The translations under genes and the position numbers were made by a program. DNA of 34,713 nucleotides from an uncultured Solirubrobacteraceae bacterium (GTDB lineage Bacteria; Actinomycetota; Thermoleophilia; Solirubrobacterales; Solirubrobacteraceae): NCBI GenBank assembly GCA_902806205.1, contig CADCVR010000010.1, forward strand, positions 1 through 34,713, read 5' to 3'. Below are positions 11,119 to 30,727 of this stretch, one piece after another. The notes below the pieces were generated by a model. The model was given only the letters and a program-made list of their open reading frames with translations, ran no database searches and was not told the DNA's origin. Each line of letters opens with the position of its first letter. Position 1 is the stretch's first letter.

Positions 11119-13029
11119 ATGGCCAAGACCATCGGCATCGACCTCGGCACGACGAATTCCTGCATGGCCGTCCTCGAGGGCGGCGAACCGACCGTGATCG
11201 AGAACGCGGAGGGCGGGCGCACCACCCCGTCCGTCGTCGCCTTCGCGCAGTCGGGCGAGCGCCTGGTGGGCACCGTCGCCAAGCGCCAGGCGGTGACCAA
11301 CCCGCAGAACACGATCTTCTCCGTCAAGCGCTTCATGGGCCGCAAGGAGCGCGAAGTCAAGGAGGAGGAGTCCATCGTCCCGTACAAGGTCGTCCCGGGG
11401 CCCAACGGCGACGCGCGCATCGAGGCCGACGGCAAGCAGTACTCCCCGCCGGAGATCTCGGCGATGACCCTTGCGAAGCTGAAGGCAGATGCGGAGGCCT
11501 ACCTCGGCCAGAGCGTCGACTCCGCCGTGATCACCGTTCCGGCCTACTTCAACGACGACCAGCGCCAGGCCACCACCGACGCGGGCAAGATCGCCGGCCT
11601 CGAGGTCAAGCGCATCATCAACGAGCCGACCGCGGCCGCGCTGGCCTACGGCCTGGACAAGGAGACCGATCAGACGATCCTCGTCTTCGACCTCGGTGGT
11701 GGCACCTTCGACGTCTCGGTCCTGGAGATCGGCGACGGCGTCTTCGAGGTCAAGGCCACCGCGGGCGACAACCACCTCGGTGGCGACAACTTCGACAAGG
11801 CGGTCGTCGACTGGCTCGCCGCGGAGTTCAAGCGCGACCAGGCCATCGACCTGAAGAACGACCCGATGGCCCTCCAGCGCCTCTACGAGGCCGCCGAGAA
11901 GGCGAAGATCGAGCTCTCCTCCGCGCAGGAGTCCCAGATCAACCTGCCGTTCATCACCGCGGACGCCTCGGGCCCGAAGCACCTCGACGTGCGCCTGACG
12001 CGCTCCAAGCTCAACGAGCTCACGGGCGACCTGCTCGATCGCGTGGTCGTGCCGGTGCGCCAGGCGCTCGACGACGCCAAGGAGAAGGGTGCCGCCAAGA
12101 TCGACCACGTCGTGCTCGTCGGCGGCATGACCCGCATGCCCGCCGTGCAGGAGAAGGTCAAGGAGCTCACGGGGCAGGAGTCCCATCGCGGCGTCAACCC
12201 CGACGAGGTCGTGGCGGTCGGCGCTGCCATCCAGGCCGGCGTGCTGGCCGGCGACGTCAAGGACGTCCTCCTGCTCGACGTCACCCCGCTGACCCTCGGC
12301 ATCGAGACCAAGGGCGGCGTGATGACCAAGCTCATCGAGCGCAACACGACGATCCCCACGCGCAAGAGCGAGGTGTTCTCCACCGCGGAGGACAACCAGC
12401 CCTCCGTGGAGATCCATGTCCTGCAGGGCGAGCGCGAGATGGCGACCTACAACAAGTCGCTCGGCAAGTTCCAGCTCACCGGCATCCCGCCGGCTCCTCG
12501 CGGCATCCCGCAGGTCGAGGTCGGCTTCGACATCGACGCCAACGGGATCCTCTCGGTCTCCGCGAAGGACCTGGGGACGGGCAAGGAGCAGAAGATCGAG
12601 ATCAAGGCGGGGGGTGGCCTGTCCGACCAGGAGATCAAGTCGATGGTCGCCGACGCGGAGTCGCACGCCGAGGAGGACCGTCGCCTGCGTGAGCTCGCCG
12701 AGGCGCGCAACAACGGCGAGAACGCCGCCTACCAGGCCGAGAAGCAGGTCAAGGACCTCGGCGACGCCGTCGACGACCAGTCCAAGTCCGAGATCGAGGA
12801 CCGGATCAAGGAGTTGCGGGAAGCGCTCACCAGCGACGACGCGGCGGAGATCACCGCCAAGACCGACGCGCTGCAGTCCGCGTTCCACAAGGTCTCCGAG
12901 GCGATGTACGAGCAGGCCCAGGCCAAGTCGGAGGCTGCCGCGGCGGCCAACGGCGGCGATCCGGCGGCGGCGGCGAACTCCGAGGAGGAGGACGTCGTCG
13001 ACGCCGAGGTCGTGGACGAGGGCAGGTAG
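11119..13029 (+). CDS. dnaK: Chaperone DnaK (Hsp70)
   Basis: A 636-residue ATP-dependent Hsp70 that binds unfolded polypeptides. It has the N-terminal phosphate-1 motif [17 protein letters not shown], the phosphate-2 motif [16 protein letters not shown], and the third signature [17 protein letters not shown]. The substrate-binding domain follows ([40 protein letters not shown]). The acidic tail ends [15 protein letters not shown], as in actinobacterial DnaK. The ATG is preceded by AAGGAG with 8-nt spacing. It is the first gene of dnaK-grpE-dnaJ-hspR, with 3 nt between dnaK and grpE. A HAIR-like palindrome about 55-87 nt upstream suggests HspR repression. Confidence 0.99.
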
Positions 13030-13032
13030 GTC

Positions 13033-13692
13033 GTGACCGAAGAGTCACAGTCACACCGGGCCGCCGCGGAGTCCTCCGCGGCGGCCGACTCCGCCGATTC
13101 GCCGCTCTCGGCCGAGGAGGCCCAGAGCGCGGCGACCGACGCCCTCGACGAGATCACGATGCCCTCCACGGCGGCGGCAGGCGAGGAGGTCGCGTCCGCC
13201 GAAGAGACGCTCCTTGCAGACCCGGCCACCCCCGACTACCAGGACCTCTATCTCCGCGCCTCGGCCGAGATGGACAACCTGCGCAAGCGGGCGCGCCGCG
13301 ACGTGGGTGCCGCGGAGGCGCGGGGCATCGGCAAGCTCGCCCGGGAGCTCCTCCCGGCCGTCGACAACCTCGAGCGGGCCCTGCAGGCCGCCGAGACGGC
13401 GACCCAGCGGTCGGTCTCGCCGCCGGCGCAGGGCACGGGTGAGGGCTCCGGCGAGCAGGACTTCCTGAAGGGCATCCGCCTCGTACAGGCCGAGTTCGTC
13501 GCTGCGCTGACCCGCGCGGGCATCTCGATCGAGGACCCGAAGGGCGAGCCCTTCGACCCGCACCGCCACGAGGCACTCGCCCAGTCGCCCGTCGAGGGCA
13601 TCGCGCCCGGCATCGTCGTCGAGGTCTACCAGCCCGGTTACCTCCTGGGCGACGCCGTGCTCCGCGCGGCGCGGGTGGTTGTCTCGGGCTGA
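13033..13692 (+). CDS. grpE: Nucleotide exchange factor GrpE
   Basis: A 219-residue protein with a GTG start 3 nt after the dnaK stop. The first 70 residues are Ser/Ala/Glu-rich and probably disordered. The coiled-coil and beta-wing GrpE domain follows (YLRASAEMDNLRKRARRDV, LLPAVDNLERALQA, FLKGIRLVQAEFVAAL, FDPHRHEALAQSPVEGIAPGIVVEVYQPGYLLGDAVLRAARVVVS). GrpE releases ADP from DnaK and so resets the chaperone cycle. The stop overlaps the dnaJ start by one base (TGATG), so the two are likely translationally coupled. Confidence 0.98.
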   Translation: MTEESQSHRAAAESSAAADSADSPLSAEEAQSAATDALDEITMPSTAAAGEEVASAEETLLADPATPDYQDLYLRASAEMDNLRKRARRDVGAAEARGIGKLARELLPAVDNLERALQAAETATQRSVSPPAQGTGEGSGEQDFLKGIRLVQAEFVAALTRAGISIEDPKGEPFDPHRHEALAQSPVEGIAPGIVVEVYQPGYLLGDAVLRAARVVVSG

Positions 13693-14819
13693 TGGCTGCC
13701 GACCTGTACAACGCGCTCGGGGTCGACAAGAAGGCGACCCAGGCCGACATCAAGAAGGCCTACCGCAAGCTCGCGCGCCAGTACCACCCCGATCGCAATC
13801 CGGGCGACGTGGCCGCGGAGACGCGCTTCAAGGAGATCTCGGGCGCCTACGACGTGCTCGGCGATCCCGAGAAGCGCAGGCAGTACGACCGCAACGGCCC
13901 CTTCGGCGGCGGGGGAGGCCCCGGCGGCACCGCTGCCCCCGGCGGCTTCTCGGACATCGGAGACATCTTCTCGAACCTCTTCGGGGACCGCGTGCCCGGT
14001 GGCGCCGCAGGCCGGACGTCGCCGCCACGTCCGCGGCCCGAGCGCGGCAGGGACCTCGAGGGGGAGGTCACCGTGACCTTCGCCCAGGCGATGGAGGGCG
14101 CCCAGATCCCGCTCAGCGTCCCCACCGCGCAGGGCTGCAAGACGTGCCACGGCACGGGGGCGAAGCCGGGCACGTCGCCGAAGATCTGCCCGCGCTGCCA
14201 GGGCCGCGGCATCGAGTCGGAGGGGCAGGGGCTCTTCTCGATCTCCACACCCTGCTCGCGCTGCGGTGGAGCCGGGACGGTCATCGAGGATCCGTGCCCG
14301 ACGTGTCAGGGTTCGGGGGTCACCCGGACGGTGAAGAAGTACCGGGTCAACATCCCGGCCGGCGTGAAGGACGGCTCGAAGGTGCGTCTGGCCGGCAAGG
14401 GGGAACCCGGGCCCCACAACGGTGCGCCCGGCGACTTGTTCGTGATCACCCGCGTGCAGCCCTCGCCGGTCTTCACGCGCAAGGGCGAGCACCTCGAGGT
14501 CGAGGTGCCGATCACGTTCCCGGAGGCGGCGCGCGGCGCGGAGGTCGAGGTCCCGACCCTCAACGGCACCAAGCGCCTGCGGGTCCCTCCGGGAACGCGT
14601 TCGGGAACCGTGCAGCGCCTGCGCGGCGAGGGCCCGCCGCGACTGGGCGCCAAGGGCCGCGGGGACATCCACTACCGCTTCGTCATCGACGTCCCCGCTT
14701 CGCTCTCACGCGAGCAGTCCGACGCGGTCGACAAGCTCTCCCGGGTGATGCCCGGCGACCCACGCTCCGACCTGTTCGCCCAGACCGGCGCCGCGACGGG
14801 CGCCGGGAGCGAGGAGTAG
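13692..14819 (+). CDS. dnaJ: Co-chaperone DnaJ (Hsp40, type I)
   Basis: A 375-residue protein with all type I parts. The J domain (about 1-70) has the HPD motif in YHPDRNPGD. A Gly/Pro-rich linker (FGGGGGPGGTAAPGG) follows. The zinc-binding region has four CxxCxGxG repeats (CKTCHGTG, CPRCQGRG, CSRCGGAG, CPTCQGSG). The C-terminal substrate-binding beta domain follows (NIPAGVKDGSKVRLAGKGEPG). It stimulates the DnaK ATPase and delivers substrates. Its start overlaps the grpE stop and its stop is 3 nt before hspR. In other actinomycetes dnaK-linked DnaJ sits in the same place, so this is the DnaJ of the HspR operon. Confidence 0.98.
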   Translation: MAADLYNALGVDKKATQADIKKAYRKLARQYHPDRNPGDVAAETRFKEISGAYDVLGDPEKRRQYDRNGPFGGGGGPGGTAAPGGFSDIGDIFSNLFGDRVPGGAAGRTSPPRPRPERGRDLEGEVTVTFAQAMEGAQIPLSVPTAQGCKTCHGTGAKPGTSPKICPRCQGRGIESEGQGLFSISTPCSRCGGAGTVIEDPCPTCQGSGVTRTVKKYRVNIPAGVKDGSKVRLAGKGEPGPHNGAPGDLFVITRVQPSPVFTRKGEHLEVEVPITFPEAARGAEVEVPTLNGTKRLRVPPGTRSGTVQRLRGEGPPRLGAKGRGDIHYRFVIDVPASLSREQSDAVDKLSRVMPGDPRSDLFAQTGAATGAGSEE

Positions 14820-14822
14820 TCG

Positions 14823-15308
14823 GTGTCCGCCGCCCGCCGCACCTCGCGATCTCGGACCACCATCACCGTGGAGCACGACCGCGGGGTCTTCATGATCTCC
14901 GTGGCCGCCGAGCTCGCGGAGATGCACCCCCAGACCCTGCGCATGTACGAGGCGCGCGGGCTGATCGAGCCGAAGCGCTCACCCAAGGGCACCCGCCTGT
15001 ACTCCCGGGCCGACGTCGACCGGTTGCGCCGCATCCAGGAGATGACGGGTGAGCTCGGTCTCAACCTCGCGGGCGTCGAGCGCGTCCTCGAGCTCGAGGA
15101 GCAACTCGGTCGCATGGTGGGCAGGGTGAAGGCCCTCGAGCGTCGCGCCGCCCAGTTGCAGGACGAGATCGCCTGCCTCGAGGACCGCCGCGACGAAGTT
15201 CGTGCCGACCTCGTCCGGTACGAGGCCCGGCCGGGCAGCGAGATCGTCCGCGCCTCCGACGTGCGCCCGCAGCGGCGCACCGTCCAGGCCGACCGCCCGT
15301 CCCACTGA
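14823..15308 (+). CDS. hspR: MerR-family heat-shock repressor HspR
   Basis: A 161-residue protein with a GTG start 3 nt after dnaJ. The MerR-type winged helix-turn-helix is the HspR form: RGVFMISVAAELAEMHPQTLRMYEARGLIEPKRSPKGTRLYSRADVDRLRRIQ (about 21-75), with the conserved MHPQTLRMYE recognition-helix region. GLNLAGVERVLELEEQL and a coiled coil (about 85-135) follow for dimerisation. HspR represses dnaK and clpB operons at HAIR sites in Streptomyces and mycobacteria, using DnaK as co-repressor. Being last in its own operon gives autoregulation. Two HAIR-like palindromes, before dnaK and clpB, are plausible targets. Confidence 0.96.
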   Translation: MSAARRTSRSRTTITVEHDRGVFMISVAAELAEMHPQTLRMYEARGLIEPKRSPKGTRLYSRADVDRLRRIQEMTGELGLNLAGVERVLELEEQLGRMVGRVKALERRAAQLQDEIACLEDRRDEVRADLVRYEARPGSEIVRASDVRPQRRTVQADRPSH

Positions 15309-15437: not shown

Positions 15438-15446
15438 CATGTGGTC

Positions 15447-17090
<1,644 letters not shown>

Positions 17091-17098
17091 TGATTGTT

Positions 17099-17134
17099 CC
17101 TCCTGCAGATCGTCGTGCGAGGATCTGCAGGAGG
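17099..17134 (+). promoter_or_regulatory. Perfect 13-bp hairpin containing the ribosome-binding site of the next gene
   Basis: CCTCCTGCAGATC (17099-17111) and GATCTGCAGGAGG (17122-17134) form a perfect 13-bp stem with a 10-nt loop. The right arm contains an ideal ribosome-binding site, AGGAGG at 17129-17134, 9 nt before the GTG at 17144, and the left arm contains its exact complement CCTCCT. There is no T-run after the stem, so a simple terminator is less convincing, although U-less terminators are known in actinomycetes. Sequestration of the binding site is a direct reading of the sequence; a regulatory role is inferred. Confidence 0.8.
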
Positions 17135-23192: not shown

Positions 23193-24215
23193 ATGAACGC
23201 AGACCAGAACAAGGTGTTGCAGTATCTCAACGAGGCACAGGGCAACGAGCAGGGGCTCGTCCGTGTGCTCCAGTCGCAGATCGCCATGACCCCGAGCGGG
23301 TCCTACCGCTCGATCCTGGAGACGCATCTGGGCGAGACGCGCGATCACGCCGACCGCGTCGCCAAGCGCCTCAAGGAGCTCGGCCAGGGCGGCAACCCGA
23401 TCACTGCGGTGGTCGGCGCGGTCCAGGGCGTCGCCGGTCAGGCGCTCGCGCTGGGCAAGACGCCGTTCGATCTCGTGCGCGGCACCGGCGGCGAGGAGAA
23501 GGTGCTCAAGAACGCCAAGGACGCTTGCGCCACCGAGGGGCTGGAGATCGCGACGTACACCGCCATCGAGCGCTTGGCCCAGAAGGTCGGTGACGAGCAG
23601 ACCGCCAAGCTCGCCGCGTCGATCCGCGCCGACGAGGAGAAGATGCTCGATCGCGTCCTGCGCGAGATCCCGAAGCTCACCGACGCGGTCGTCCGCGCCG
23701 CAGTGGACGGCAACGCGTCCTACGACATCACGACCACGGGCGCAGCGGACGCTGTCCGCGCGGCCGGCGAGACCGCCCGCAAGTCAACGGCCAAGACGGC
23801 GGCGAGCGCCAAGCGGACAGCGCGCCAGGCGCGCAAGGTGCCCGGTGTCGCCCAGGCGGAAGGTCAGGTCAAGGGCGCCGTCGCCTCCGAGCAGGATCTC
23901 GCGATCGCGCGGTACGACAGCCTCAACGCCGACGAGATCACCGCCAAGCTGACGGAGCTCTCGCAGGTCGACCTGGCCAAGGTCGACTCCTACGAGCGCA
24001 AGCACGAGAATCGGAGCACGATCCTGAGCCGCGTCTCGACGCTTCGCGGCGACGAGCCGTGGGCGGGCTACGACGAGCTCACCGCTGCCGAGGTGGTCTC
24101 CGCCTTGTCCGGCAGTGACGACGAGCAGGTTTCGAAGGCCCGCGGCTACGAGCGCGCGCACAAGAACCGCGCCGGCGTGATCAAGGCCGCCGAGCGCGAG
24201 CTCGCCAACGCCTGA
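23193..24215 (+). CDS. DUF892-like (YciE/YciF-type) stress protein with two C-terminal repeats
   Basis: A 340-residue protein starting MNADQNKVLQYLNEAQGNEQGLVRVLQSQI. The N-terminal 165 residues form a ferritin-like four-helix pattern with repeated E/H positions (LETHLGETRDHADRVAKRL, IATYTAIERLAQKVGDEQTAKL, IRADEEKMLDRVLREI), like DUF892 proteins found in general-stress regulons. A Lys/Ala-rich linker (about 185-230) follows. Two tandem repeats of about 50 residues (240-291 and 292-340) follow, each with YDxL...AxE(I/V) and YERxH(E/K)NR at identical spacing. Residues 240-340 are probably helical. A sigma-B-like promoter candidate and a strong terminator hairpin frame the gene as a single unit. 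The biochemical role is unknown. Confidence 0.85.
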   Translation: MNADQNKVLQYLNEAQGNEQGLVRVLQSQIAMTPSGSYRSILETHLGETRDHADRVAKRLKELGQGGNPITAVVGAVQGVAGQALALGKTPFDLVRGTGGEEKVLKNAKDACATEGLEIATYTAIERLAQKVGDEQTAKLAASIRADEEKMLDRVLREIPKLTDAVVRAAVDGNASYDITTTGAADAVRAAGETARKSTAKTAASAKRTARQARKVPGVAQAEGQVKGAVASEQDLAIARYDSLNADEITAKLTELSQVDLAKVDSYERKHENRSTILSRVSTLRGDEPWAGYDELTAAEVVSALSGSDDEQVSKARGYERAHKNRAGVIKAAERELANA

Positions 24216-24241: not shown

Positions 24242-24273
24242 CCCGAGGGCCCGGCTAGCGCCGGGCCCTCGGG
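24242..24273. terminator. Strong intrinsic-type hairpin, possibly bidirectional
   Basis: CCCGAGGGCCCGGC (24242-24255) and its perfect complement GCCGGGCCCTCGGG (24260-24273) form a 14-bp GC-rich stem with a TAGC loop. It lies 26 nt after the stop of the DUF892-like gene and between convergent genes (the minus-strand gene ends at 24310). There is no T-run, as often in high-GC actinomycetes. Confidence 0.8.
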
Positions 24274-24309: not shown

Positions 24310-24555
24310 TCAGCTGTCCGGCGGTGCGTGTGACGGGTCGTTGTGGCCCCGCGTGGTGCCGTCGTCGCCGCCGGCCTGGTCCTCGGCCGCCTGGCGCCCC
24401 GGGTGGCCCGGAGGGAGGTCGTGCGGGGAGATCTCGTCGTGCGCCTCGTCCGTGTCGCCGAGCGGCCTATCGTCGTCGGCGAGGATGTCGCCCGGCGGGC
24501 CCTGGGCCTGGCTGTCGGCGTCTGCGCGGCTCTCGTCCTGCTCGGCGTCGCTCAT
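24310..24555 (-). CDS. Small acidic protein with the LGDT/EAHDEI/GTTRG motif (paralogue C)
   Basis: An 81-residue soluble protein, MSDAEQDESRADADSQ..., with a disordered acidic N-terminus. Residues 31-71 hold the motif shared with the genes at 24565-25011 and 27867-28100: PLGDTDEAHDEISPHDLP, then GHPGRQAAE and GTTRG. Spacing from PLGDT to GTTRG is 35 residues in all three. The gene is 9 nt downstream of paralogue B, so they are co-transcribed. No catalytic signature is recognised. The conserved His, Asp and Glu could bind a metal or a partner, but that is speculation. The repeated motif supports it being a real gene. Confidence 0.8.
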   Translation of the reverse strand: MSDAEQDESRADADSQAQGPPGDILADDDRPLGDTDEAHDEISPHDLPPGHPGRQAAEDQAGGDDGTTRGHNDPSHAPPDS

Positions 24556-24564
24556 CGGCGGACC

Positions 24565-25011
24565 CTACCGCGCACCCTCGCCGGCCTCCGCGGGATCCGC
24601 GTGCCCGCGCGTCGTGCCCGCGGGCTCCTCCACCTGCTCCTCGGCCGCCTGCCGGCTCGGGTGCCCGATCGGGAGGTCGTGCGGGGAGATCTCGTCGTGG
24701 GCCTCGGGCGTGTCGCCCAGCGGCGTCTCGGAGTCCGGGATCAGGTGCGCCGACGGGATGGGATCCTCGTCGTCGTTCATGGCGTTCTCCAGCGAGCCGT
24801 CGCGCTCGATGACCCGCCGGGTCAGGCGGCGGTTGACCATCGCGTAACCGAGCACGAGGCCGACCAGGATCAGCGCGGGTACGAGGTAGATCGGCTCCCC
24901 GGTGGCCACGACGGTCGCGGCGTAGGCGGTCATGAAGAGGCCGAGGACCGCGAACATCCACTTGGGGATCGCTCCTCCGCCGGCCTTGCTCTCCTGCTTC
25001 GAGACGCTCAT
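24565..25011 (-). CDS. Two-helix membrane protein carrying the same motif (paralogue B)
   Basis: A 148-residue protein. Residues 1-15 are polar. Two transmembrane helices follow (about 17-37 and 41-59: WMFAVLGLFMTAYAATVV and IYLVPALILVGLVLGYAMV), then a basic patch (NRRLTRRVIER). A cytoplasmic or external tail ends in the motif at residues 97-137 ([32 protein letters not shown]). So the shared motif is a C-terminal module added to a membrane anchor here. The gene is 77 nt after the helicase and 9 nt before paralogue C, all on the minus strand. No strong ribosome-binding site is visible upstream of the ATG at 25011. Confidence 0.82.
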   Translation of the reverse strand: MSVSKQESKAGGGAIPKWMFAVLGLFMTAYAATVVATGEPIYLVPALILVGLVLGYAMVNRRLTRRVIERDGSLENAMNDDEDPIPSAHLIPDSETPLGDTPEAHDEISPHDLPIGHPSRQAAEEQVEEPAGTTRGHADPAEAGEGAR

Positions 25012-25088
25012 GGAGCGCGGCTACCCGGCGCCCTCGGCGTGAGAACCGGCGGCACGAGCGGTCCCGCGCCCGATTCGGGCGGGCGGCC

Positions 25089-27827
25089 TCAGTGCCAGAC
25101 GGTTCGTCGACTGGCCAGGTACGCGGTCCCGGCGGCGACCGCGTGGGCCCGCGCGGCCCGGCCCTCGTCCGTGCGGCCGGCGAAGAGCAGGTCTCCGGCT
25201 CCGAGCCAGCGCGTCCACGCGCGGTGGAAGGCATCGGCGCGGTGGCGGTGCGTGGCCAGGTCGCTCGGAACGGGGTGCCACGCGGCCTCGAGCACCGAGA
25301 ACCCGAGCAGTGCCCGCCAGCGGAGGCCCGCGCGGTCCTCGGCCGCCGGCCAGGCCGCTCGCGAGACGACGTAGCGCGGCACCGCTCCGCCGCCGAGGAC
25401 GTCCTCGAGCGCGGACGCGAAGCGCTGGTTCTCGTCGGGGTTCCCGTCGAGCAGCAGGCAGCGCAGGCTCCCGCCGGGGCGAGGGAGCAGCGCGACGGAG
25501 CCCGCCGCGGCAGGCGTGATCTCGCCGAGGGCCGTGTAGGTCTCCGCGATGGCCTGCGCGACGCGGTCGAGGGGAAGCACGTGCGGGTAGCAGCGCGCCG
25601 CGGCGCCCAGACGGAACGCCAGGACGGGGCCGCGGCGCCCGGGGAGCCGCGGCGGGCGGTCCGGCGCCGCGGCCCGACCCACCGGAGGAGCGCCGCCGGC
25701 GGGCGGGCGGACGAGCAGCACCGCAAGCTCCTCACCGACGTAGTCGCCTCCGATGTCCCAGCGCTCCCGGGCTCCCGCCCGGTCGGCGGCGCGCTCGAGC
25801 GCCGCGGCGTTGAGCGCGGCGAACGCCGCGGATGGTGGAGGCGTGACGGGTGAGAGCGAGGGATGGACGTGCGAGACGCCGGTCTCGATCGAGCCGTCCT
25901 CGCACGGCGCGTGCAGGTGGCTGTGGCGGCGGACGAAGCGGGCGTAGTCCGCGGTGCCGCGCGCGAGCTCGGGTGCGACGCAGACGACATCCCAGTGGGA
26001 GCTGATCTTCTCCGGGTCCCGCGGATCCAGGCGCAGCGCACGACCGCGCATCTGGCGGACCGAGACGTCGGCCGCGACCGTCGTGAGATCGACGAGGCAG
26101 TTCAGCGTCGGCGCGTCCCACCCCTCGCCGAGGAGCCCGCGGGTCGCGACGAGCAGCTGGGTCTCGCCCGTCGCGAGGGCGGCGCCCGCCGCCCCGACCC
26201 AGTCCCGGGTGCTCCAGCCCGGGCGCGTCAGCTCGACGAGGCCGTCGGCCGTCGGGGTGCTCTCCGCGTCGAGCGCGCGACACAGGCGGGCAGCGTCGGG
26301 CGGGAGGCAGGCGACGGTGCGGCCCGTCACGAGCAGCGGACGCAGCGCTGCGGTGCGCAGGTCGTCTCCGAAGACGGCGAGCAGCCCGCGAGCGCCGCCG
26401 GCGAGCTCGAGCGCGCTGCCTTCGGGCCGTCGAGGCGCGTCCTGGGTGTCGCAGAGCACCGCCGCGCGCAGCCCGTCTCCTCGCGCGTGCGCCTCGGCGC
26501 CGAGGAGCTCGACGGCCGCGAGCGCCTTGGCGCGCGAGGTGGTCAGGACACGGTCGACGTCCGACGCGCCCCGCCGGATCCCGGTTCGCGTCAGCTGAAA
26601 GCCGAGGTCCCGCAGGCCGACGCCGAGCTCGTCGAAGCGTCGCTCCGCGGGCGCACCCGGGTGGCCTCGCAGGCACCCGACGGCGTAGTCGCCGAGGAGC
26701 ACGAGCCAGTCGTCGAGCGTCGGCGGCGCTCGCCAGCCCTCGCCGCGCGGGGCGTCCTCGGGCAGCTCGAGGTCATCCGCGTGCAGGTAGCGCAGCCCCG
26801 CTCGGGCGAGCTCGGGCCGGCGCGCGGCAAGCGTGGAGAAGGGGACGCGCGCCTGCCCGGTCCCGTCGTCGGAGTAGCGGATGCGCCCGATCACCCACGG
26901 CGCGAAGGCGAGGTGCTCCTCCTCGGAGGGCGCCGGCGTATGGAGGTGGTCGAGGAGCTCGGCGAAGCGGACGTGGCGCTCGGCGAGCCAGTCGTACTCC
27001 GACTGCAGCGGCGCGGTGAACCAGGCGAGCTCCTGGTAGGGCGCGAGGTGGCCGTCGCGAACGACGGCCGGCGTGGGGATCTCGAAGTCGACTGGGCCGA
27101 GAAGCCTCGCGTAGACCTCCGCGTCGTCCGCCGCGAGCTCGGCGGGCGCGGTGGCCGTCAGCCCGATGACGTGCACGTCGCCGGGAAGGCGCGCGATCAG
27201 CGCCGCGACGAGGTATCCCCACATCGAGGCGAGGTGGTGGCATTCGTCCAGGACGACCGTCCCGATGCCGCGTCGCACGAGCTCGTCGACCCGGGCGCGG
27301 GCAGTCGCCGACAGCAGCCCCGAGATGTCGCCGTCGCGGGCCGCATCGCGCTTGAGCGACGCGACGCGCGACGCGATGTCCCGGCCTTCGCGTGCGGACG
27401 GGGCGTGGCGCAGCCGGTCGCGGAGGGTTCGGCGCTCGGCGTCGGTGAGCCCGAGCCGCTCGCCGGCGAGCCGGTCGATCGCGGCGTCCCGCAGTGCGCC
27501 GGCGGGGTCGGTCGTCTGGCACAGGGACTGGTAGGTGAGCACATGCAGCGGACCGTCCGGCCCGACGAGCGCGCTCGGCGTCTGCGTGAACAGGGCCACG
27601 GCCCGCTCCCACTGCTCGGCGATCGTCGTGGTCGGCGCCAGGACCAGCACCGGCCGATCGAGGCGACGGGCGATCTCCAGGCCGACGACGGTCTTCCCGC
27701 TGCCCGGCGGCGCCACCAGATGCGTCGAGGTTCGCCGGCTGCGGCGGTCGGCCTCGAAGGCGTCGAGCGCGAGCTCCTGTGCGTGGCGGAACGCTCGCGG
27801 AGGCCGGAGGTCGGCGAGGGCGCCCAC
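25089..27827 (-). CDS. Superfamily 2 DNA/RNA helicase (DECH-box, res-subunit-like)
   Basis: A 912-residue protein. Helicase motifs are in order: motif I APPGSGKT (39-46), motif Ia VLAPTTTIAEQW, motif II LDECHHL (DECH at 194-197), motif III GLTATAP (222-228), and a C-terminal RecA domain with the motif VI-type QMRGRALRLDPRDPEK. The region between the two RecA domains is long (roughly 250-430) and Ala/Leu-rich. The C-terminal 250 residues contain no recognised domain. Res/type III-type helicases couple ATP hydrolysis to strand separation or translocation, but no nuclease or methylase is nearby, so a restriction role is not supported. It lies between paralogues A (39 nt upstream) and B (77 nt downstream) on the same strand. 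Confidence 0.9.
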   Translation of the reverse strand: MGALADLRPPRAFRHAQELALDAFEADRRSRRTSTHLVAPPGSGKTVVGLEIARRLDRPVLVLAPTTTIAEQWERAVALFTQTPSALVGPDGPLHVLTYQSLCQTTDPAGALRDAAIDRLAGERLGLTDAERRTLRDRLRHAPSAREGRDIASRVASLKRDAARDGDISGLLSATARARVDELVRRGIGTVVLDECHHLASMWGYLVAALIARLPGDVHVIGLTATAPAELAADDAEVYARLLGPVDFEIPTPAVVRDGHLAPYQELAWFTAPLQSEYDWLAERHVRFAELLDHLHTPAPSEEEHLAFAPWVIGRIRYSDDGTGQARVPFSTLAARRPELARAGLRYLHADDLELPEDAPRGEGWRAPPTLDDWLVLLGDYAVGCLRGHPGAPAERRFDELGVGLRDLGFQLTRTGIRRGASDVDRVLTTSRAKALAAVELLGAEAHARGDGLRAAVLCDTQDAPRRPEGSALELAGGARGLLAVFGDDLRTAALRPLLVTGRTVACLPPDAARLCRALDAESTPTADGLVELTRPGWSTRDWVGAAGAALATGETQLLVATRGLLGEGWDAPTLNCLVDLTTVAADVSVRQMRGRALRLDPRDPEKISSHWDVVCVAPELARGTADYARFVRRHSHLHAPCEDGSIETGVSHVHPSLSPVTPPPSAAFAALNAAALERAADRAGARERWDIGGDYVGEELAVLLVRPPAGGAPPVGRAAAPDRPPRLPGRRGPVLAFRLGAAARCYPHVLPLDRVAQAIAETYTALGEITPAAAGSVALLPRPGGSLRCLLLDGNPDENQRFASALEDVLGGGAVPRYVVSRAAWPAAEDRAGLRWRALLGFSVLEAAWHPVPSDLATHRHRADAFHRAWTRWLGAGDLLFAGRTDEGRAARAHAVAAGTAYLASRRTVWH

Positions 27828-27866
27828 CGCCGCGAGCGTACCGCAGGGCAGCCCGCTGGAGCTCGC

Positions 27867-28100
27867 CTACGCGACGTTCCCGCGGGTCGTGCCGTCGCCG
27901 TCGGCGGCCTGCCGCTCGGCGGCCCGTCGGCCCGGGTGACCCTTGGGAAGATCCTGGGGCACGATCTCGTCGTGCGCCTCCGGCGTGTCGCCGAGTGGGG
28001 TCCGGCGGTCAGGGGTGAGCGGACCGAAGCGCTCCCGCCGCGTGCGGCCGCGCCGGGAGGACTTGCGGCGTTCCTGCAGGTCTGATCGTGAATCGCTCAT
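27867..28100 (-). CDS. Small basic protein with the same motif (paralogue A)
   Basis: A 77-residue protein, [26 protein letters not shown]..., with an Arg-rich first third that could bind nucleic acid. Residues 35-75 hold the shared motif ([32 protein letters not shown]). The start at 28100 is chosen because paralogue C also starts MSD. GGAGGG precedes it very closely. An in-frame ATG further upstream (28154) would read through the clpB operator region and is rejected. It is the first gene of the minus run ending at 24310 and is divergent from clpB across 89 bp. Confidence 0.8.
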
Positions 28101-28156: not shown

Positions 28157-28189
28157 GACAGATCTCAGTCGGCTACACTGAGATCTGTC
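28157..28189. promoter_or_regulatory. Perfect palindromic operator of clpB (HAIR-like), abutting its start codon
   Basis: GACAGATCTCAGT (28157-28169), the 7-nt spacer CGGCTAC and the exact reverse complement ACTGAGATCTGTC (28177-28189) form a 13-bp perfect inverted repeat. The ATG of clpB begins at 28190, directly after the repeat. TACACT (28174-28179) is a -10 candidate inside it, which would put the transcript start almost at the ATG (leaderless). In RNA the same repeat would be a hairpin touching the start codon. Its layout matches HAIR (N7 spacer), and the linked HspR is the likely binder. Confidence 0.8.

Positions 28190-30727
<2,538 letters not shown>

Follow-up and report, generated by a model that had tools for sequence, protein, structure and literature searches.

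What are three small genes that share one motif and lie on both sides of a helicase gene, and does the helicase belong with them? The question arises from a 34,713-nucleotide (nt) stretch of DNA from an uncultured Solirubrobacteraceae bacterium, called the window below. An earlier note on this DNA had taken the motif genes and the helicase together as its best candidate for an undescribed system. We find that the motif genes, here designated P0001, P0002 and P0003, belong to a real, lineage-restricted family that is worth naming and that is not a helicase system; the conserved neighbour of this family is the heat-shock cluster, not the helicase.

Three motif proteins and the family they define

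The motif genes of the window, with the basis of each assignment, are:

27867–28100, minus strand: P0003, 77 amino acids (aa), Arg-rich soluble form, isoelectric point (pI) 10.9, head-to-head with clpB (open reading frame (ORF) and motif)
24565–25011, minus strand: P0002, 148 aa, membrane helices at residues 17–37 and 40–71, followed by the C-terminal motif (ORF and AlphaFold2 (AF2) secondary structure)
24310–24555, minus strand: P0001, 81 aa, acidic soluble form, pI 4.05 (ORF and tree)

All three ORFs are present on the minus strand where the earlier note had placed them, and its account of their spacing (intergenic gaps of 39, 77 and 9 nt) and of their Arg-rich, two-helix and acidic carriers agrees with our measurements. 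The segment from PLGDT to GTTRG spans 40 gapless residues, with a spacing of exactly 35 in each protein; 28 of these columns are identical across all three, as had been counted, although the segment had been given one column too many (41). Pairwise BLASTP alignments show 66–69% identity over 48–50 residues without gaps (E 9e-20 and 1e-21), a likeness that, judged from sequence, is far beyond chance. Orthologues of P0003 occupy the matching position in genomes G005 and G002, both of which also encode two-helix relatives of P0002, and soluble relatives fill the P0003 slot in G001 and others. In four further genomes (G056, G009, G055 and G017), the two-helix form is the sole motif gene beside clpB. 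A second type of carrier is a larger membrane protein that has several hydrophobic segments and bears the motif at its C-terminus (G046, G010 and G006; loci L130, L137 and L085). The motif was rightly described as a portable module; it is C-terminal and is carried by a paralogous family of soluble, two-helix and multi-helix proteins.

Of the 146 genomes searched that share the window's GTDB family, 32 contain a match to a profile of the family core with E ≤ 0.001, and in 28 of these the match is strong. In a class-level profile search, the sole strong match outside Solirubrobacteraceae came from G411, a low-completeness metagenome-assembled genome (MAG) of another family; the part of this match used for the tree does not differ from a sequence of an uncultured Thermoleophilia MAG, and the match may be misbinned. 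In 396 Actinomycetota genomes, matches outside Solirubrobacteraceae were only marginal and partial, and relatives elsewhere in the phylum were dropped from consideration. Named records with the motif are mostly assigned to Solirubrobacteraceae or Solirubrobacterales and include the isolate Paraconexibacter antarcticus (NZ_CP098502.1), in which clpB is accompanied by two motif genes (L109/L080). Searches of viral contigs and plasmids found no relatives, and a mobile or viral origin was rejected on that ground. When the codons of 37 family cores were compared pairwise, pN (nonsynonymous) was lower than pS (synonymous) in 96% of cases, with means of 0.23 for pN and 0.41 for pS; this marks the motif genes as protein-coding genes under purifying selection.

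No described domain had been recognised in the motif, and none emerged here: P0001–P0003 matched no family above cut-off in Pfam, NCBIfam, PHROGs or PADLOC, nor did 18 family members in Pfam. A profile search of the PDB returned a look-alike in the Rib domain of the group B Streptococcus R4 protein (6s5y), in which the short stretch VGETPKAEDSI-NLPDLPKG gave a whole-sequence E of 9e-4 and per-domain E values of 0.96–2; one family member also matched PF08428 (Rib) in Pfam at E 0.037. From GETPKAEDSI onwards this stretch resembles an 18-residue part of the motif, but the motif proteins have no match to the remainder of the Rib domain. Membership was rejected, since the per-domain E is about 1 over some 30–40 residues and the low-confidence AF2 model contains no strands; the resemblance is taken as convergence or chance. 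The motif proteins constitute an undescribed small-protein family specific to Solirubrobacteraceae.

A conserved position beside clpB

Two features of the window place the family in a heat-shock setting:

28190–30727, plus strand: clpB (TIGR03346, 1281.9 bits, above cut-off), the conserved divergent neighbour
11119–15308, plus strand: dnaK-grpE-dnaJ-hspR operon (NCBIfam DnaK TIGR02350, DnaJ NF008035 and HspR NF047375 above cut-off)

P0003 lies head-to-head with clpB, a point absent from the earlier note. The same arrangement of a motif gene and clpB is found in 18 of the 28 strong-match genomes (G000, G001, G002, G003, G005, G006, G007, G009, G014, G017, G043, G044, G045, G047, G049, G055, G056 and G149), counting G049, where a short contig has the match flanked by clpB and hspR. 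The clpB-adjacent motif genes are spread over GTDB genera g1, g3, g6, g8 and g11 together with one g18 genome, and the head-to-head position is kept across several genera while the flanking genes change. In most genomes with a long enough contig, dnaK-grpE-dnaJ-hspR lies just beyond the motif gene and clpB, the pair usually sitting immediately downstream of this operon; hspR is also nearby in G004, whose contig stops at the motif gene, and in G012, which has a clpB fragment only. The link to heat shock is hidden in the window because many other genes separate hspR (end 15308) from clpB (start 28190). HspR itself is confirmed by its curated model, NF047375, which scores 113 bits where 105 are required, and the best matches of the GrpE in the operon are GrpE models, with scores below their cut-offs.

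The clpB fragment of G012 (L110:9542–9697), which adjoins the motif gene, covers ~52 aa at 92% identity. That genome yielded no full-length clpB; gene loss or an assembly fault is possible.

A candidate HspR operator

The intergenic region between clpB and P0003 contains a further feature, also absent from the earlier note:

28157–28189, no strand: inverted repeat GACAGATCTCAGT-N7-ACTGAGATCTGTC with perfect 13-bp arms, a candidate HspR operator (HAIR-like)

Its 7-nt spacer reads cggctac. In 30 of 32 loci the DNA ahead of clpB contains the core, ATCTCAGT-N7-ACTGAGAT or a close variant, usually 2–30 nt before clpB and 46–130 nt before the start of the motif gene. A degenerate form (ATCT-3-A-N7-RCT-N-AGAT or near) precedes dnaK in most of 15 loci, with scores that overlap the background. 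To our knowledge, no HspR regulon has been reported to include a small protein of this type, and a limited literature search found none. Control of clpB by HspR through the HspR-associated inverted repeat (HAIR) is established in actinobacteria (PMC6102357, PMC8223512), and the Streptomyces box reads CTTGAGT-N7-ACTCAAG (PMC6102357), with the same spacer length and symmetry as the repeat described here. With up to 3 mismatches, that consensus has no match in the window. The locus thus resembles the HspR regulon of Streptomyces and Mycobacterium (HAIR, dnaK operon, clpB) in having hspR, clpB and, ahead of clpB, an inverted repeat with a 7-nt spacer, which the clpB-adjacent motif genes adjoin as well; it differs in the arm, ATCTCAGT here and CTTGAGT there.

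Protein character and orientation of the motif

Soluble members are 69–100 aa long, lack Cys and mostly have a pI of 4–5, the Arg-rich P0003 being the exception. Hydrophilins, in their original definition, exceed 6% Gly and a mean hydrophilicity of 1. Values above both thresholds, which are also given in PMC8998581, are seen in 18 of 19 soluble members, compared with 4 of the 107 remaining small ORFs at these loci; helix-bearing members, taken as whole proteins, fall short of them. AF2 modelling from a 19-sequence alignment gave a mean predicted local distance difference test (pLDDT) score of 64 and a predicted template modelling (pTM) score of 0.30, with only residues ~41–60, the conserved core, reaching a pLDDT of 72–85. 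In the model of a soluble member, which like that of P0002 is of low confidence, the core forms one short helix. The soluble members are therefore mostly acidic, hydrophilin-like and predicted to be disordered, and the confinement of the pLDDT rise to the core would fit a peptide that becomes ordered on binding.

In P0002, the two membrane helices are followed by an Arg-rich stretch ahead of the motif, which by the positive-inside rule would place the motif in the cytoplasm. Two-helix forms cluster in the tree (54 columns, low resolution), and P0001 groups among them; it may thus have been derived by loss of the helices.

Proposed role

We tentatively propose, with confidence just short of an even balance, that the motif proteins are a lineage-specific family of stress proteins in Solirubrobacteraceae, commonly encoded back-to-back with clpB, in which the core is a docking tag facing the cytoplasm. 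HspR, bound at a shared operator, would keep both the motif gene and clpB repressed until they are released by heat or by stress that damages proteins. The conserved gapless stretch of ~22 residues would serve as a docking peptide that orders on a cytoplasmic partner, while the mostly acidic, disordered remainder would keep the protein soluble under stress and the helix-bearing forms would present the same tag on the inner membrane face. On the basis of gene position, a component of the ClpB/DnaK system is our leading guess for the partner. A fuller version of this scheme strikes us as improbable: docking tails under HspR control, some soluble and others tethered to the membrane, would form a lineage-specific accessory module of the bacterial disaggregase and would recruit or regulate ClpB/DnaK both in the cytosol and at the inner membrane.

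Several observations weigh against a stress role tied to clpB. A check of 30 genomes detected ClpB in 29, whether or not the motif is present, so co-occurrence cannot test a partnership between the two. The motif family was undetected in 114 of the 146 Solirubrobacteraceae genomes, and must be dispensable for ClpB function in general. The operator precedes clpB in motif-free genomes too (L168–L186) and may serve clpB alone; we therefore infer its sharing with the motif gene only from their common intergenic space. Motif genes away from clpB, namely most of those in g18 and those in G048, have no adjoining operator. Five g18 genomes have the motif gene upstream of genes for a CHAD-domain protein and a ParA-type ATPase (L111, L112, L113, L114 and L118), and G048 carries two scattered motif copies; these homes speak against any obligatory link with clpB.

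The CHAD-domain gene beside the g18 motif genes is of the polyphosphate-binding type, and in three of the five genomes a conserved ORF of 75–80 aa, unassigned to a family, lies just upstream of the motif gene.

Alternative explanations

The main rival, which we lean against but consider a serious possibility, is that the motif gene is a passenger in a favourable slot: it would have an unrelated role and its own promoter, inherited beside a clpB to which the palindrome belongs exclusively. Both the operator at motif-free clpB genes and the predominant g18 position beside CHAD-domain and ParA genes are in keeping with such a passenger. So is the pentamer GGGTA, found ~10 nt before the ATG of 12 of 34 motif genes compared with 18 of 505 non-operon genes, and suggestive of near-leaderless promoters of the motif genes' own. 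In P0002 (window 25011–25030) it precedes the start codon by 10 nt, as it does in many relatives. A peak at 10–13 nt is seen before unrelated genes as well, and GGGTA looks like the −10 element used by this lineage's near-leaderless genes. What a passenger does not readily explain is the retention of the head-to-head position across genera despite changing flanks.

The genome encodes a sigma factor of the SigBFG type. A SigB/SigF-type promoter, GGTTC-N13-16-GGGTA, was considered and was not supported as stress-specific: it occurs 8 times genome-wide against 7 in the reversed control, and its GGGTA half also precedes unrelated genes.

We regard as unlikely a generic protectant of the hydrophilin or late embryogenesis abundant (LEA) kind, a bulk disordered shield for proteins or membranes during drying or heat that has no specific partner. 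Composition, predicted disorder and the heat-shock neighbourhood would all suit it, and the motif proteins resemble hydrophilins and yeast Hsp12 in being small, Gly-rich, highly hydrophilic and predicted to be disordered in such a neighbourhood. However, no sequence homology to these proteins is apparent, and the motif proteins differ from them in their strongly conserved gapless core and membrane-anchored variants. The ~22-residue sequence, conserved without gaps across genera, has a specificity that a bulk protectant should not require, and the membrane-bound versions retain the same tag.

The helicase gene

The gene that interrupts the motif trio of the window is a real ORF in the same direction, as had been reported:

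25089–27827, minus strand: superfamily 2 (SF2) helicase, XPB/ResIII-like (PF04851, E 1.5e-13; PF00270, DEAD)

Its nearest solved relatives are XPB/Rad25. The earlier note had proposed a profile search for motif proteins and an examination of whether the matches neighbour this helicase type; across the 28 strong-motif genomes and the 23 of 146 family genomes that encode the helicase, the two were found side by side solely in this window. Fourteen of the 23 helicase genomes have no strong motif match, and in 8 others, the window genome apart, helicase and motif genes lie on separate contigs. Several genomes are fragmented MAGs, in which missing linkage counts for less than it does in G003 and G149, which are less fragmented. 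No motif gene was recognised in ten helicase neighbourhoods, and these differ among themselves. In G005, counterparts of P0003, P0002 and P0001 follow one another in the same order, separated by 48 and 10 nt, and the helicase is absent from between them. The simplest reading is that the helicase was inserted later into the trio in the window lineage and would be an incidental neighbour.

A single functional unit of motif proteins and helicase, for example in defence, can be set aside as extremely implausible: the shared strand, the short gaps and a weak similarity of the helicase to some defence helicase models speak for it, but its co-location is not conserved across the genomes examined, and searches gave the motif proteins no PADLOC match and no viral or plasmid relatives. 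Of the undescribed system originally suggested, the undescribed family stands and the helicase part, barring a recurrence of the arrangement in further genomes, is refuted by its distribution, a ground for refutation that the earlier note had itself named.

Other features of the window

A perfect 14-bp hairpin at 24242–24273, between P0001 and a convergent DUF892 ferritin-like gene (23193–24215), is a possible bidirectional transcription end; it has no T-run and was not called by a terminator scan. Another perfect inverted repeat with 13-bp arms, CCTCCTGCAGATC-N10-GATCTGCAGGAGG, lies at 17099–17134, just 3' of the gene at 15441–17090.

Implications

A sharp sequence signature now defines an undescribed protein family on soluble and membrane carriers, linked to the heat-shock cluster of actinobacteria by where its genes lie, and a spurious helicase-system candidate has been removed. 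If these proteins dock on ClpB/DnaK, they would represent a new accessory factor in HspR-type bacteria. The hypothesis is testable in Paraconexibacter antarcticus, an isolate that carries the family and whose genome is complete.

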